Origin: Marinilabiliales bacterium
GTDB taxonomy: Bacteria > Bacteroidota > Bacteroidia > Bacteroidales > F082
Direction of reading: 5' to 3'
NCBI GenBank assembly: GCA_002869315.1
Contig: PKTD01000241.1
Span: 1 to 42,522, forward strand
DNA: 42,522 bases
Within the stretch, counting starts at the first letter, position 1, and each line of letters starts with the position of its first letter. The position numbers and the translations under genes are program-made. Of the stretch, positions 3,626-39,001 are shown in pieces. The notes under the pieces are model-generated. The model ran no database searches. It was given only the letters and a program-made list of their open reading frames with translations, and had not been told where the DNA came from.

Positions 3626-3656
3626 CTTTATTCTCACGTAAAAAAGAATTAAAAAT

Positions 3657-3687
3657 ATTGTTTTAGAATTATTTTGTAGTAATTTTG
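3657..3687 (+). promoter_or_regulatory. Bacteroidota-type promoter of the OmpA/TPR gene
   Basis: ATTG (3657-3660) and TAATTTTG (3680-3687) are separated by 19 bp, matching the TTTG/TAnnTTTG arrangement of the Bacteroidota primary sigma factor. The predicted 5' leader to the ATG at 3768 is about 75 nt and AT-rich. Confidence 0.65.
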
Positions 3688-3767
3688 CATTTACCAAAAC
3701 CACGTTATTTCAAATTTTTAATATATTTGTAAATAATAATTTTATTTTGATAATAATTTATAAAATC

Positions 3768-6248
3768 ATGAAAAGAGTTTATTCTATTTTAACAAGCGTA
3801 TTTTTTCTAAGCATGATGATCCTACCGATGTCTTTTTACGGACAGGAGGAAGGAACAGATGATACTAAGAAAGAAGTGAAGAGTGCAAGTTTTAGTCCCT
3901 ACATTTTTGTGCAAGGGCAGTTTGGAACCAGTTGGTTTTATGGTGACTTAGCCAGATACCAATTTGCACCTGATTTGGAAAACACACAAGTGAGTGGTGG
4001 TTTTGGTGGAGGTTACCAATTCCTACCATGGTTAAATGCTCAAATGAATCTATTGAGAGGCTTTAATAGTGCTCACAGAAAAGTTATAACACCTAAAAAT
4101 GCCATAGGTACGGGAGCAGGTACATCTCAGGATATGAAGATGGATATGGATTACTGGAGTGGCGATATCATGTTGGGTATCAATGTTTCAAATCTATTGG
4201 CAGGTTATAAAGATCGATTAGTTACATTCGGTCTTCATGGTGGTGTTGGTCAAACACAGTTTAATTCCAGAACTTATGATGGAATTACAGGTGCGCGACT
4301 TGCAGGTAGAGGAAAATATGCTCCAGCAGGATCTACAGCTGAAGGTAAAGGGTTAGCTAAGCGTAAGGTTGCATTAACTGTGCCTGTAGGTGCTGATTTA
4401 AACTTTGCTGTTTCAGAAAAGTTTGATGTATTTGGTAAATATACTTATACCTGTATGGCAACTGATTGGGCAGACAATGTAATTCATGGTGAAATGGCTG
4501 TGAAAAATGACGCTTATTCTCAGTTAAGTTTAGGTTTGAGATATAAGTTTATCAGCAAGAGCCCAGCAAAGATGGCAAATAACTTCGATAAAGTTGAGTT
4601 AATGGCTGTTCCTAATCCACTTGAAGAAAGAGGAGATTCAGTAGCAGTTACTATTAAAGGTACTTTCCCTCCAAAATATTTCATTGAGAATGGTGTAATG
4701 TGTTTTACTCCTGTATTGAAATATGAAGGCGGTGAAACTGCTTTCGAACCTATGAAGTTTAAAGGTGAAGATGTAGAAGGTGACGGAACATTAATTTCAT
4801 ATAAGAATGGTGGTTCTTTCGTTTATACAGGAAAGATTCCTTATAAAGAAGGCATGGAAGTTTCAGAACTTTATGTAGCCCCTGTTATATATAATAACAA
4901 TGGAACGGAATATACTGATTGTGATGAAGCATTAGCAAACGCTCCTAAAGCAGTTCAAGCTGAGCCTAGAAAACTTGCTGATGGTGTTATTCACCTTTCA
5001 AAATTTGTTCGTCATAATGAGTCAGAAATTGTTGCACCTCATGGATATGAGTTAGAAACAGTTATTACTCAAACAGCTGATATTTATTTCCAGGTTAACC
5101 TTGCATATCTTAACAAGCGTTTACCTCTGAATAAAGATGAAGCAAATAAAGAAAAACTTGCTAATTCAACTATGGACATAGAAAATGGATGGGCAGTTAA
5201 AAATATTACTATCAACGGTTGGGCATCTCCTGAAGGAGAAGAGACTTTCAACGAAGGCCTTTCAATGAAGCGTGCTCAAACTGCTGAGAAGTTTATGAAG
5301 AAGAAAATTGGAGAAGATGCCGAGAATATGACATTTGTACTCAATGGTAATGGTCCTGATTGGAATGGATTCATGACTGCCGTTGAAGGTTCACAGATTG
5401 CTGATAAGAATGCAATCATCAATGTTGTTAACTCTGCAGATGCCAGCAAAAAAGAAGAAGAAATTCGCAATATGATTCTTATTTATCCTGAATTAGAGCG
5501 TGATATTCTTCCTCCATTACGTCGTGCTGAAATAAATGTAAATACATATGAGCCTAAGAAGCCAGCTGCTCAGATTGCTGAATTTGCTACTTCTGATCCT
5601 GCTCAGCTTTCAGTAAACGAAATATTATATGCTGCAACATTAACTGATGATCTTAATACTAAGAAACAAGTTTATGCTAATGCAATGAACCAATATCCAA
5701 AATGCTGGAGAGCAGTTAATAATGCTGCCGCCATCGAATTGGAAATGGGTAATGTAGATGCTGCAAAAGAATTATTGGCAAAAGCACTGGAGATGAATGA
5801 AAATTCTTCAGAGGTGTATAACAATATGGGAATTGTTGCTCTGCATGAAGGAGACTTCAATGCAGCAGAAGAGGCATTTACTAAAGCTCAGGATTTAGGT
5901 GCTGACGTAACTTATAATATGGGTGTTACCAAACTTTATCAAGGCGATTATGCCAAAGCAGAAGGTTTACTAGCAAATGCTGGTTGTGATTTCAACCGCG
6001 GTTTAGCTCAGTTATTAAATAGTAACTATAGCGGAGCACAAAAGACTTTCTCTTGTGTTGAACCTCAGGATGCAGAAACTATCTACATTCAGGCAGTTGC
6101 GGCTTCAATGAATAATGATAAAGAATCTACACTTAAGTATTTAGGAGAAGCTATTAAAGCAGATGCTAAGTATAAGAAATGTGCAACTAATGATATGGTA
6201 TTCTTAAAGTATCGCGATGATGCAAGTTTCCAGGCTTTAATAAAGTAA
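3768..6248 (+). CDS. Outer-membrane OmpA-like protein with C-terminal TPR repeats
   Basis: An 826-residue envelope protein. Residues 1-25 form a signal peptide ending near SFYG-QEEG. A region to about residue 265, rich in alternating aromatic and small residues, looks like an outer-membrane beta-barrel (FVQGQFGTSWFYGDLARYQF near its start, LGLRYKF near its end). A beta-rich middle section follows. An OmpA-like stretch around NGWASPEGEETFNEGLSMKRA resembles the peptidoglycan-associated domain, in which the SxEG motif and a following helix are typical. The last ~190 residues are TPR-like helical repeats (NNAAAIELEMGNVDAAKELLAKAL and similar). The first reading-frame start at 3747 is a TTG; the ATG at 3768 begins a proper signal peptide and is preferred. 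A structural role linking outer membrane, peptidoglycan and partner proteins is inference. Confidence 0.8.
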   Translation: MKRVYSILTSVFFLSMMILPMSFYGQEEGTDDTKKEVKSASFSPYIFVQGQFGTSWFYGDLARYQFAPDLENTQVSGGFGGGYQFLPWLNAQMNLLRGFNSAHRKVITPKNAIGTGAGTSQDMKMDMDYWSGDIMLGINVSNLLAGYKDRLVTFGLHGGVGQTQFNSRTYDGITGARLAGRGKYAPAGSTAEGKGLAKRKVALTVPVGADLNFAVSEKFDVFGKYTYTCMATDWADNVIHGEMAVKNDAYSQLSLGLRYKFISKSPAKMANNFDKVELMAVPNPLEERGDSVAVTIKGTFPPKYFIENGVMCFTPVLKYEGGETAFEPMKFKGEDVEGDGTLISYKNGGSFVYTGKIPYKEGMEVSELYVAPVIYNNNGTEYTDCDEALANAPKAVQAEPRKLADGVIHLSKFVRHNESEIVAPHGYELETVITQTADIYFQVNLAYLNKRLPLNKDEANKEKLANSTMDIENGWAVKNITINGWASPEGEETFNEGLSMKRAQTAEKFMKKKIGEDAENMTFVLNGNGPDWNGFMTAVEGSQIADKNAIINVVNSADASKKEEEIRNMILIYPELERDILPPLRRAEINVNTYEPKKPAAQIAEFATSDPAQLSVNEILYAATLTDDLNTKKQVYANAMNQYPKCWRAVNNAAAIELEMGNVDAAKELLAKALEMNENSSEVYNNMGIVALHEGDFNAAEEAFTKAQDLGADVTYNMGVTKLYQGDYAKAEGLLANAGCDFNRGLAQLLNSNYSGAQKTFSCVEPQDAETIYIQAVAASMNNDKESTLKYLGEAIKADAKYKKCATNDMVFLKYRDDASFQALIK

Positions 6249-6270
6249 AATAGAATAAATTATTATAAAG

Positions 6271-6310
6271 AAAAACCCGGCTTCTTTTTGAAGTCGGGTT
6301 TTTTATTTTT
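6271..6310. terminator. Bidirectional terminator between convergent genes
   Basis: The inverted repeat aacccggcttc (6274-6284) with gaagtcgggtt (6290-6300) has a short loop and is flanked by A and T runs on both sides. It can therefore serve both the OmpA/TPR gene and the minus-strand kinase gene. Confidence 0.85.
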
Positions 6311-6357
6311 TGTGAATTAATTATACTAGAGCATTGAAATACCCAGAATTGTAAAAA

Positions 6358-6990
6358 TTAAAATGTGATTCTGTGAACGCCCTTAGTATAATCTTTATTT
6401 AAGGTATCAATAATTGTTTGATAGTCATCCATATTATGAACAAAATCCAGATTATTGGTGTCCAGTATTAGTATCCTCATATCTCTTTGTTGATTCATAA
6501 AATCGAAATAACCACTCTGTATCCTGTCGAGATAGTCATTTCCAATTTCCTGCTCATAGGGCCTTCCACGTTCTTTAATATTCTGTTGTAGTCGGGGAGT
6601 ATCAACATATAAGAATACAAATAAATCAGGTTTAGGTAATTGAGTATGGATAATTTGAAAGAATCTGTTATATAATTTTAATTCATCTGCCGCAAGTGTT
6701 TTGCCGGCAAAAATTAATGACTTTATGATATAATAATCTGAGATGGTAAAGGTTTTAAACAAATCTCTATCACCTAATTGATCTTTGAGTTGTTGAAATC
6801 TGGATGCTAAAAATGACATTTCCAATGGAAAAGCATATTTGTCAGGTTCCTTATAAAATTTAGGTAAAAAAGCATTGTCCTCAAACTGTTCGAGTATGAG
6901 TTTAGCATTAAAATCTTTAGCTATCATTTTCGACAGGCTTGTTTTGCCGGCACCTATATTTCCCTCTATGGCTATAAAATTATAGTTCAT
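6358..6990 (-). CDS. Deoxynucleoside kinase (dAdo/dGuo kinase family)
   Basis: This predicted cytosolic kinase salvages deoxynucleosides by phosphorylating the 5'-OH with ATP or another NTP. The 210-residue protein opens with the P-loop G10-NIGAG-K16-T17 and continues with the substrate-pocket segment EQFEDNAFLPKFY. It then has a DYYIIKSLIFA segment at the place of the family's DRS motif and an arginine-rich lid ERGRPYEQE. The gene starts 3 bp after the folK stop codon, so the two are almost certainly co-transcribed. folK upstream and this kinase together form a small nucleotide/folate unit, an arrangement I believe recurs in Bacteroidota. Base preference (dA, dG or dC) cannot be assigned from the sequence. 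Confidence 0.9.
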   Translation of the reverse strand: MNYNFIAIEGNIGAGKTSLSKMIAKDFNAKLILEQFEDNAFLPKFYKEPDKYAFPLEMSFLASRFQQLKDQLGDRDLFKTFTISDYYIIKSLIFAGKTLAADELKLYNRFFQIIHTQLPKPDLFVFLYVDTPRLQQNIKERGRPYEQEIGNDYLDRIQSGYFDFMNQQRDMRILILDTNNLDFVHNMDDYQTIIDTLNKDYTKGVHRITF

Positions 6991-6993
6991 TAT

Positions 6994-7488
6994 TTATATG
7001 CTATTCACTTTTGATTCATCACTGCATTCATCCAGTAACTTAAGGTTAGTTTTATTAAATATTGGATGAACATAATAAGGAGCAATCTCACATAAAGGTT
7101 CCAAAACAAATTTTCTGAATTGTAAACGCGGATGCGGAATAATTAAGTCCTTTTCGTTTATTATATCATTATTGAAGTAGATAATATCAGCATCCAGTGT
7201 TCTGGATGAATATCCTTGTGATTTATTTCGCTTCCTTCCCAACTCCATTTCTATCTCCAGTAAACTATTCAATAATTCATTGGCTGAATAATTTGTTTCT
7301 ACCTTTAAAAGGATATTCAGAAAGTTGTTTTCCGATTCAAATCCCCAGGCTTCAGTTTCATATATTGCCGATTTATTTGAAATATATCCTGACTTTAAAT
7401 TAATTTTCTCCTCTGCTTCTTGTAAAAAAGACTTGCGTGGTTCAATATTTCCACCTAATAAAACAAAAGCGGTATTTTTATAAGACAT
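6994..7488 (-). CDS. folK: 2-amino-4-hydroxy-6-hydroxymethyldihydropteridine pyrophosphokinase
   Basis: FolK transfers pyrophosphate from ATP to 6-hydroxymethyl-7,8-dihydropterin, the step before dihydropteroate synthase in folate synthesis. The 164-residue length is normal. The family signature SSRTLDADIIYFND-like segment (two metal-binding Asp residues) is followed by IPHPRLQFRKFVLEPL, both diagnostic. The N-terminal loop reads LLGGNIEPRKSFL, where GGNIGDR is more common; this is a mild divergence. It is the first gene of a two-gene unit with the deoxynucleoside kinase (3-bp gap). Confidence 0.94.
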   Translation of the reverse strand: MSYKNTAFVLLGGNIEPRKSFLQEAEEKINLKSGYISNKSAIYETEAWGFESENNFLNILLKVETNYSANELLNSLLEIEMELGRKRNKSQGYSSRTLDADIIYFNNDIINEKDLIIPHPRLQFRKFVLEPLCEIAPYYVHPIFNKTNLKLLDECSDESKVNSI

Positions 7489-36188: not shown

Positions 36189-36236
36189 TAAAAAAATCGG
36201 GCAAATCATATATGCAGATATACCCGATTTTTTTTA
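36189..36236. terminator. Terminator after the multiheme cytochrome
   Basis: The arms aaaaaatcggg (36191-36201) and cccgatttttttt (36223-36234) bracket a 20-nt AT-rich loop. On the minus strand the hairpin starts about 18 bp past the cytochrome stop and is followed by Ts; it can also work on the plus strand. Confidence 0.8.
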
Positions 36237-36252
36237 TATCATAATATGCTTA

Positions 36253-37380
36253 TTATAAACCTAATGCTGTTTCAGCCTGAGTTAATAATTGTTTAGCATA
36301 TCCGAAGTTATGTAAACCATGACTCTTGTCTTCCCATAAACACATAAAGTTCCAGAAAGCATTCCACTCGTCTCTTGGAAGAGAAGCATACATTGGGTGT
36401 ACACCATCGTCGGCAACGTGAATTGCACCTATTCCTTCTAAAGCAACTTCAACAGCATGCATTCTGTCAGCTATGGCTGCCATCTCTGCTTCAATATCTA
36501 GAGCATCTCCGTGACATTCATTACACATAGCAATATTTGGTGAAAATGTGTGGCCTGAACCTTCTTCTTTTGATAAGTGACAGCCAGCACAATCTGTGTG
36601 ATGATCTCTGTCAAATGGAGCACCAGCAACAGTTCCAATATCAGCCGCAAAAATATTTGCCTGAGGACCGTGGTGTGGTCCAGCATGAGTACTACTAGTA
36701 TAAACATGGGTTGTAGGTACATCGAAAGTAACAAATAAAGTATCACCTACTAATTCCATAGTTCCGTTAGGTCCTATAGCACCATGTGCCTGATATACAG
36801 CAATATCTTCACCTGTGAATTTTCTGCTATATGTAGCGTCTTCAGTTTTGTTGTCGTAGCCAGTTGAAGCTCTTCTTGCCTGGTGACATGTAGCACAGGT
36901 ATTACCCATACCATGCTCATAAGTAGCACCTTCAATAGCAATAGATACAACCGGACTAGCAACGCTACGCATTGGAGCGCTTATACCATCTTCTAAACTA
37001 CTGTGGTCTGCATGACAAGTTTGACAAGTTACTGGAGTAGAAACTGCGGCACCAATTTCTTCACCTGATCTTGCGAACTCAATAAAACCGTCACTTGAGT
37101 GACAACGTCCACAAGAACCGCTTGTTCCACGAGCCCAAGATGAACCCGTTACGTGTTTTGTTTGATCAAAAGCAGCGTGAATATCACCCATATTAGCGGC
37201 GGTGTGACATACTAAACAAGATACGTTTCCGTCAACGCCGTCTTTTCCGTCTGATCCGTTTGTTCCATCTGCACCATCTTTACCAGCAGGGCCTGCAGGT
37301 CCCTCTTTAGTACATGATGCCATCATTCCTATAACAAATATTATTGATATAAGGAAATAACTAAAATAATTTCTTTTCAT
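36253..37380 (-). CDS. Hexaheme c-type cytochrome lipoprotein with collagen-like segment
   Basis: A 375-residue envelope protein. The signal peptide ends in a lipobox (MMASC, lipid on C23). Residues 27-53 form nine collagen-like G-x-y triplets (GPA, GPA, GKD, GAD and so on). The rest carries six CxxCH heme sites, at C55, C90, C119, C162, C264 and C286, and many extra histidines (THAGPHHGP, DRDHHTDC) that could be distal ligands. It resembles multiheme cytochromes that move electrons across or outside the envelope. The collagen-like stalk after the lipid anchor may hold the heme domain away from the membrane. No other cytochrome, porin or maturation gene is adjacent. A Crp/Fnr regulator is divergent across a 277-bp intergenic region, suggesting redox-responsive expression. 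Its redox partner and substrate are unknown. Confidence 0.88.
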   Translation of the reverse strand: MKRNYFSYFLISIIFVIGMMASCTKEGPAGPAGKDGADGTNGSDGKDGVDGNVSCLVCHTAANMGDIHAAFDQTKHVTGSSWARGTSGSCGRCHSSDGFIEFARSGEEIGAAVSTPVTCQTCHADHSSLEDGISAPMRSVASPVVSIAIEGATYEHGMGNTCATCHQARRASTGYDNKTEDATYSRKFTGEDIAVYQAHGAIGPNGTMELVGDTLFVTFDVPTTHVYTSSTHAGPHHGPQANIFAADIGTVAGAPFDRDHHTDCAGCHLSKEEGSGHTFSPNIAMCNECHGDALDIEAEMAAIADRMHAVEVALEGIGAIHVADDGVHPMYASLPRDEWNAFWNFMCLWEDKSHGLHNFGYAKQLLTQAETALGL

Positions 37381-37657: not shown

Positions 37658-38311
37658 ATGTTTACAAACGTTTTAAGATATCTTGAACCAGAGCAATTAA
37701 AAAAAATTGAGGAGATAAAATTTCCTGTAAACTTTGCGAAAGGGGAAACAATTTTTAAGCAAGGAGCGCCGCTAACTCATATTATTGTTATTAATAAAGG
37801 ACTCTTAAAAGTATATCTTGAAGATAGGGAACAGCATAGTATTATTTTGCGATTAATAAAAAGTGGAGAGATTGTTGGAGGTCCAGGATTTCATACCGAT
37901 TACCGTCATCATTTCTCTTTAACAGCGCTGGAAGAAACAGAAGCATTTTTCATAGATGTGATGCAATTTGAAAATTGTTTATTGCAAAATTCCACCTTTG
38001 CAATTAAGTTCATTGCCTATTTAAATAAAGGACATATAGGGCTTTATAATAAATTGAGGGTGTTCGAACATAAGCACATGAATGGAAGGATGGCTTCTAC
38101 TCTATTATATTTGTCGGAACAGATTTATGAAGCTGAGGAATTTGAAACTGAACTTTCACGTCAGGATATAGCCGACATGTCAGCAATGACAAAAGAGAGT
38201 TCTATTAGGCTCATTAAAAACTTTAAAGATTCAGGTATTATAGAATGCAATAATAACCATTTTAAATTGTTGGATAAAGAGCACCTTATAAATATAATGG
38301 AAAATGGATAA
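37658..38311 (+). CDS. Crp/Fnr-family transcriptional regulator
   Basis: A 217-residue regulator with a cyclic-nucleotide-binding-like sensor domain (about 15-120: FAKGETIFKQGAPLTHIIVINKG, then KVYLED) and a C-terminal winged HTH (about 165-190: LSRQDIADMSAMTKESSIRLIKNF). It lacks the RxS cAMP-binding signature of E. coli CRP and has no N-terminal cysteine group, so its effector is unknown. Strong similarity in order and wording to the regulator at 19618-20316 (KVYLED/KLYLED, the HHFSL/YHFSL patch, the HTH) marks them as paralogues. It is divergent from the hexaheme cytochrome and probably controls it and/or itself through the intergenic sites. Its stop codon abuts that of the next, convergent gene. 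Confidence 0.9.
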   Translation: MFTNVLRYLEPEQLKKIEEIKFPVNFAKGETIFKQGAPLTHIIVINKGLLKVYLEDREQHSIILRLIKSGEIVGGPGFHTDYRHHFSLTALEETEAFFIDVMQFENCLLQNSTFAIKFIAYLNKGHIGLYNKLRVFEHKHMNGRMASTLLYLSEQIYEAEEFETELSRQDIADMSAMTKESSIRLIKNFKDSGIIECNNNHFKLLDKEHLINIMENG

Positions 38312-39001
38312 TTAAAATACTTTTAAAATTAATCCAACACCTATATTTGTAAATAAAATATTCCGAATTCTGTACACATGTCCTGAATATTCATAAAATC
38401 CAAACTTCAATTTTGAATAAGTTAAATCGAAATTCAAATCCATAGCTACGTAATTGTTAAATGCGTAAATCAGGTTTGCACCTCCTTTAAAGGCCAGTCC
38501 ATAAGCCTTCGATGAGGTAATAGTAAAATACGAGGGGCCATATAAATAATACTCAGGGAAAAATAATTGATAAGGTGTTTTTCCATACATCACACCTATT
38601 AGTATTTTTGGATTAACACTGAGTTTCTCATTAATTTTTATTCTGTAATTAGTTCCTAATAAAGTTGTGCTCAATGAATAAGCCTCTGATCTTATGTATA
38701 AGTCTAAAAGAAGATTATCCTCATTTACCATGGCAGTGCCCAATTCACTTGTATTTACCGGGTGGAATGTTTGATTAAAGTCGAGAACTAAACCAATTTT
38801 TTGGTTAATATGCCATGTTAATTCACTACCAAAGGAAACTCCATGTAGTGTAAAACAACTTTTATCTATATCATTTCCTGCATATTCACCCCAAGGTGAG
38901 GAGAGGTTCGAACGAATGGAGATGCTTAAATTCTCACTTTGAGCACTAATGCTAAAATTTATTAATACCAATAAGAAAATTATTATTGTCTTTTTAATCA
39001 T
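38312..39001 (-). CDS. Predicted outer-membrane beta-barrel protein, function unknown
   Basis: A 229-residue protein with a signal peptide (residues 1-20, ending FSISA-QS) followed by alternating hydrophobic/polar strands rich in Tyr and Phe, such as LSISIRSNLSSPWGEY, IGLVLDFNQTFHP, YSLSTTLLGTNYRIKI and FTNIGVGLILKVF. The last strand ends in a hydrophobic residue, as in many outer-membrane proteins. The size suits an 8-10-strand barrel. I recognise no specific family beyond this general porin-like type. It is convergent with the Crp/Fnr gene, with no intergenic space. Confidence 0.72.
   Translation of the reverse strand: MIKKTIIIFLLVLINFSISAQSENLSISIRSNLSSPWGEYAGNDIDKSCFTLHGVSFGSELTWHINQKIGLVLDFNQTFHPVNTSELGTAMVNEDNLLLDLYIRSEAYSLSTTLLGTNYRIKINEKLSVNPKILIGVMYGKTPYQLFFPEYYLYGPSYFTITSSKAYGLAFKGGANLIYAFNNYVAMDLNFDLTYSKLKFGFYEYSGHVYRIRNILFTNIGVGLILKVF

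Follow-up and report, generated by a model that had tools for sequence, protein, structure and literature searches.

The window, i.e., the whole 42,522-nucleotide stretch of Marinilabiliales DNA analyzed here, encodes a hexaheme lipoprotein (HEX) which represents a real, conserved and widespread protein family, apparently not described previously. HEX is a lipid-anchored multiheme cytochrome that, by tests of heme count, CxxCK, PF22113 and MtrB, lies outside the Mtr and NrfA families, and it probably helps Bacteroidota and their relatives to transfer electrons to the outer envelope or across it. The computational evidence comprises protein architecture, conservation of a collagen-like spacer, operon content and co-occurrence, an FNR-box, and fold kinship; the comparisons are based on draft genomes, best-match sampling and structure models without heme. 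A literature search, with subscription journals mostly outside its scope, returned no mention of DUF5777, the outer-membrane partner discussed below, and no collagen-like region combined with a multiheme cytochrome.

A preliminary description of this DNA had recognized a lipobox, nine G-x-y triplets and six CxxCH motifs in one 375-residue protein, with a Crp/Fnr regulator as the divergent neighbor. All of these elements are present, on the minus strand, and Pfam agrees on the regulator (Table 1). The plus-strand translation of 36253-37380 contains 23 stops, and the HEX frame is thus that of the minus strand. The acylated cysteine is aligned in 21/21 close homologues. Because a terminator-like repeat directly follows the stop codon and a second terminator-like stem is found at 36122-36087, HEX appears to be monocistronic at this locus. 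The 229-aa secreted protein encoded nearby, probably an outer-membrane protein, is kept beside the orphan HEX in nine genomes.

The FNR-box-like palindrome lies between HEX and the divergent Crp/Fnr gene. Matches to TTGATNNNNATCAA with at most one mismatch occur within 300 nt upstream of HEX at 29 of 44 loci, in most cases at a distance of about 115-180 nt from the start, compared with a mean of 2.1 and a maximum of 9 in shuffles. This putative box fits control of HEX by an FNR-like regulator.

Table 1. Coordinates of HEX, its parts and the adjacent features in the window
Feature	Position	Strand	Basis
Hexaheme lipoprotein gene (HEX), 375 aa	36253..37380	-	ORF read; 100% own-genome match, single copy
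Signal peptide and lipobox GMMASC; acylated Cys is residue 23 (codon 37312-37314)	37312..37380	-	Sequence
Nine G-x-y triplets, residues 26-52 (collagen-like spacer)	37225..37305	-	
Hexaheme domain, residues 53-295	36496..37224	-	
C-terminal three-helix region (296-316, 336-351, 359-373), conserved H357-N358 as in OcwA/NrfA	36262..36495	-	
FNR-box-like palindrome TTGAGATATATCAA, 154 nt before HEX start codon	37521..37534	-	Motif search
Divergent Crp/Fnr-family regulator	37658..38311	+	Pfam
A-tract/T-tract inverted repeat AAAAAATCGGG...CCCGATTTTTT, terminator-like, directly past HEX stop	36191..36233	.	Sequence
229-aa secreted protein (family C6), beside orphan HEX in the window's clade	38312..39001	-	Pfam: no family

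The first line of evidence for the significance of this architecture is the conservation of the spacer. In HEX, nine uninterrupted G-x-y triplets (GPAGPAGKDGADGTNGSDGKDGVDGNV) separate the lipobox from heme 1, a run that did not arise when residues 24-54 were shuffled 20,000 times. The survey was queried with the heme domain alone, which avoids bias from the spacer itself; 490 relatives were confirmed in a scan in which each bacterial or archaeal species was represented by a single genome. The 80 best of them, a set biased toward close kin, were retained, and a phylum sample added further relatives. In 92 of 98 stand-alone homologues from several phyla, a cysteine is separated from heme 1 by at least four G-x-y triplets, with a median of eight. 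Four of the six exceptions (three Phycisphaerae and one Anaerolineales) have an ordinary signal peptide without lipobox and no spacer; one has three triplets, and one only the lipobox. All 30 homologues read at full length (30/30) possess a lipobox and a G-x-y run, with five or more CxxCH at equivalent positions, the sixth heme motif being CX4CH in three of them (L019, L025 and L026). Spacer-less members are scattered in the heme-domain tree, where well-supported branches force at least four changes; therefore, the spacer has been lost or gained several times. Its length ranges from 4 to 15 triplets, with 6-8 in many homologues, and the X and Y residues vary by group (GAD, GTD and GVD are common in Bacteroidota, GPA in Chloroflexota), while the register is constant. 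Taken together, these comparisons mark the spacer as being under selection within a lipid-anchored protein. The conserved combination of lipid anchor, collagen-like spacer and hexaheme domain proposed earlier is thus upheld by the same 92 homologues, and the absence of the stretch from orthologues, which would have spoken against it, is not what is seen.

Two other readings of the spacer deserve attention. Its variable length and X/Y residues might be taken to indicate a random low-complexity linker without function, an explanation which we rejected as highly improbable, given that the run is kept across several phyla in homologues retrieved by the heme domain, and that Pfam collagen signals in the window's family of genomes come almost entirely from HEX, the sole collagen-like match in its own draft genome. 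It is unlikely, in our opinion, that the run forms a true collagen triple helix, which would make HEX a trimeric stalked cytochrome in either of the cellular locations considered below. The spacer of the window has just nine triplets with two prolines among the eighteen X/Y positions, is disordered in the monomer model (pLDDT below 50 at residues 23-53), and scores 18.9 bits against Pfam Collagen PF01391, below the curated cut-off of 27.2; moreover, many homologues have only 6-8 triplets, and short, proline-poor G-x-y stretches are not expected to trimerize unaided. The points in favor of a triple helix are the strict register, which persists despite varying X and Y, and the GPA/GPP-rich spacers of the Chloroflexota homologues.

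The second line of evidence comes from the heme domain. The CxxCH motifs of HEX lie at residues 55, 90, 119, 162, 264 and 286, and Pfam places cytochrome c3/c7 above threshold. Six histidines outside these motifs, H76, H126, H236, one of H260/H261, H277 and, in the C-terminal region, H357, are conserved in 21/21 close homologues and in almost all of 117 broad homologues. The family-wide conservation of H236 and of one of H260/H261 agrees with the earlier suggestion that the His-rich stretch between hemes 4 and 5 may be a source of ligands. One extra histidine per heme suggests six bis-His hemes, with the His-heme pairing presumed, and since all six would be so ligated, electron transfer is favored over catalysis. 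HEX contains no CxxCK, and no open heme site is apparent, the extra histidines being equal in number to the hemes. The preliminary description had offered the alternatives of an electron carrier or a terminal reductase; the extra histidines and the nearest fold, described next, favor the carrier, whereas a catalytic reductase has become less likely.

The AlphaFold (AF2) model of HEX, which does not include heme, is a confident domain (mean pLDDT 83.5, pTM 0.81) with a β-sheet at residues 182-228 and three C-terminal helices within 296-373. HEX alone had no phmmer match in the PDB; only the family profile gave matches, the best being OcwA (E 5.5e-12), followed by NrfA, covered over residues 106-330, and MtrC, with HAO matched weakly. 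Foldseek ranks OcwA first, at a modest TM of 0.30-0.39, followed by the undecaheme S-layer cytochrome of Carboxydothermus. The profile match and the C-terminal three-helix bundle connect HEX with the NrfA/OcwA superfamily, the heme core being absent from the model. OcwA belongs to the NrfA superfamily and is described as a terminal reductase at the cell surface; it has two high-spin hemes, a bundle of three helices at the C-terminus and an additional β-sheet domain, and it reduces nitrite slowly (PMC6703420). HEX looks like a shorter relative of OcwA without an obvious open heme. The heme domain of HEX also occurs, without a collagen-like spacer, at the C-terminus of Bacteroidota proteins of 600-980 aa with mostly nine CxxCH (L208-L221 of the phylum sample).

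The third line of evidence is the genomic context. The preliminary description found no adjacent partner genes other than the Crp/Fnr regulator, which is true locally; in relatives, though, HEX is usually the first gene of a conserved cluster, and the remainder of this cluster is found on another contig of the window's own genome. The typical order is HEX, a monoheme lipoprotein and a DUF5777 β-barrel, then often a small cytochrome c and multihemes; Pfam identifies among the further genes a NapC/NirT-type hexaheme, a heptaheme, cytochrome b561 and a 19-heme protein fused to b561. Among the independent loci of the best 80 of 490 relatives, HEX is accompanied by both the monoheme lipoprotein and DUF5777 in 42/80, and by a heptaheme in 31, b561 in 29, a NapC-type protein in 20 and Crp/Fnr in 43. 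Flavobacteria retain HEX, the monoheme lipoprotein and DUF5777, with FeS/NrfD genes instead of the others; therefore, the outer module is constant and the quinol-side module is exchanged. In the window's genome, contig C17 carries, in order, the monoheme lipoprotein, DUF5777, NapC-type, six-heme, b561 and b561-19-heme genes, where the contig end cuts the cluster. HEX has left the operon in the clade of the window, and a stand-alone gene without partners is ruled out by C17 together with the clusters of relatives.

Co-occurrence agrees with this linkage. A HEX homologue is present in 43 of 100 related genomes, and an operon-type DUF5777 in 41/43 genomes with HEX versus 7/57 without it (Fisher 2.7e-18, a p value inflated by phylogeny); counted by genus, co-occurrence is 21/0/3/32 (p 1.5e-12, likewise inflated by phylogeny). 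In G001 and G010, which belong to clades where HEX and DUF5777 are unlinked, both genes are missing, and this co-absence at unlinked loci is telling. A second DUF5777 copy in the window's genome, on contig C178, was rejected as the operon type; it is a paralogue paired with a C3-like partner of its own.

Several other cytochrome loci were encountered. The C178 locus (L099, 6942-8191) is a second monoheme-lipoprotein/DUF5777 pair with no other cytochromes, so the pair can stand alone. The b561 fusion of the HEX-linked operon is exemplified by L047 (12366-15167), a 933-aa protein with 19 CxxCH hemes and a cytochrome b561 membrane domain, with equivalents in L100, L101, L103, L104 and L106. Also in the window's genome, L108 (contig C205, minus strand) encodes a 28-heme cytochrome (726 aa, 3651-5831) beside a 20-heme one (539 aa, 5813-7432), adjoining an FeS/pyridine-nucleotide oxidoreductase and a 544-aa protein that matches no Pfam family, possibly a second electron-export module. 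L107 (contig C73, 6075-8771, minus strand) encodes an 898-aa protein in which a cytochrome b N-terminal domain is joined to 11 c-hemes.

It may well be, at what we judge to be about an even chance, that HEX is an outer-membrane lipoprotein carrier, the last of a chain encoded by a dispersed operon, and that electrons are delivered most likely to external acceptors at the cell surface. The direction of electron flow, bis-His ligation, surface display and the acceptor are what we infer from the data above. Quinol oxidation and periplasmic wiring would be performed in the window's genome by the NapC/NirT-like protein, b561 with a multiheme, and the b561-19-heme fusion; at the outer membrane, electrons would then reach the monoheme lipoprotein and DUF5777, and finally HEX, which would hand them on at the cell surface, for instance to shuttles or to Fe(III)/Mn(IV) oxides. 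The six bis-His c-hemes of HEX would be held about 30 residues from the lipid anchor by the hydrophilic spacer, which, if extended, could place up to roughly 9 nm between anchor and hemes.

The crossing of the outer membrane is the weak step of this surface-carrier model. The DUF5777 model is a 12-strand barrel (mean pLDDT 83.5) resembling small porins, whereas MtrB, known to sheathe a cytochrome, has 26 strands; as predicted, the barrel is too narrow for an Mtr-type sheath. No MtrB/PioB (PF11854) scored above cut-off in 16 genomes, and an Mtr-type porin-cytochrome conduit is ruled out, the barrel of the operon being DUF5777. It is also possible, if somewhat doubtful, that HEX, though anchored in the outer membrane, is turned toward the periplasm, its spacer allowing the hemes to extend across the peptidoglycan to cytochromes of the inner membrane, and feeds periplasmic reductases or DUF5777, which would be an ordinary small-molecule pore. 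The small barrel suits this placement, as do the spacer-bearing homologues of Chloroflexota, which often have no classical outer membrane. The published Bacteroidota surface-lipoprotein (LES) signal is C-X-K-(D/E)2-X after the acylated cysteine (PMC5080379), of which the C-T-K-E-G of HEX matches the lysine and one acidic residue only; this half match counts against surface display and for the periplasm. Nevertheless, the folds nearest to HEX are those of surface cytochromes, OcwA and the Carboxydothermus S-layer protein, and the constant partnership with a barrel and a second lipoprotein is more in keeping with a step at the outer membrane than with a hub in the periplasm. The modest OcwA scores, together with the periplasmic enzymes of the NrfA superfamily, weigh against the surface carrier, and the pairing with NrfD/FeS in Flavobacteria means that the acceptor may differ there. 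A catalytic role for HEX in reducing some soluble nitrogen or sulfur compound, akin to NrfA, MccA or HAO, is quite unlikely: the NrfA and HAO profile matches, the three-helix region and the slow nitrite reduction by OcwA would be in line with it, but CxxCK is absent, and with as many extra conserved histidines as hemes no open site is obvious.

Among the Bacteroidota, which abound in anoxic sediments, are isolates that reduce Fe(III)/Mn(IV) by genes that are unknown (PMC5760507). A conserved, FNR-box-associated operon, with a conserved barrel and a lipid-anchored cytochrome that carries the conserved collagen-like spacer, is a concrete candidate, and it is present in cultured type strains of Draconibacterium, Marinifilum, Labilibaculum, Sunxiuqinia and Maribellus. 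Labilibaculum filiforme 59.16B, which carries HEX (L160), reduces Fe(III) oxides, and its describers could not identify the genes (PMC5760507); perhaps the HEX chain serves metal reduction, the Labilibaculum link being a correlation in one strain. More tentatively, HEX, the monoheme lipoprotein and DUF5777 might constitute a new type of conduit unrelated to MtrCAB, with a small 12-strand barrel and a stalked surface cytochrome, which would explain metal reduction across Bacteroidota and neighboring phyla.

Among known systems, OcwA, the nonaheme outer cell wall cytochrome of Thermincola potens (PDB 6i5b), is the best profile and fold match, sharing with HEX the β-sheet, the C-terminal three-helix region and the HN motif, and being a multiheme protein at the cell surface. 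It differs in having nine hemes, two of them high-spin, compared with six and an apparently full His set in HEX, and it comes from a Gram-positive organism and lacks the HEX-type lipid anchor and collagen-like spacer. The superfamily of the pentaheme nitrite reductase NrfA, which includes MccA and HAO, matches over the C-terminal hemes and helices; however, HEX is a lipoprotein with six CxxCH hemes and no CxxCK catalytic heme, and an NrfA-type enzyme was ruled out on the heme motifs. The decaheme surface lipoproteins MtrC, OmcA and MtrF, which act with MtrAB, resemble HEX as lipid-anchored multihemes encoded with a β-barrel and periplasmic cytochromes. HEX has six hemes rather than ten and matches the MtrC domain weakly (PF22113, 25 bits, below the Pfam cut-off of 30), its operon has no MtrB homologue and a barrel of about 12 strands rather than 26, and MtrC is not known to have a collagen-like spacer. 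Bacterial collagen-like surface proteins of the Scl1/Scl2 type (PF01391) likewise place G-x-y repeats between anchor and functional domain, but the repeat of HEX is far shorter, at nine triplets, and below the Pfam threshold, its lipid anchor is N-terminal, and its cargo is a cytochrome.
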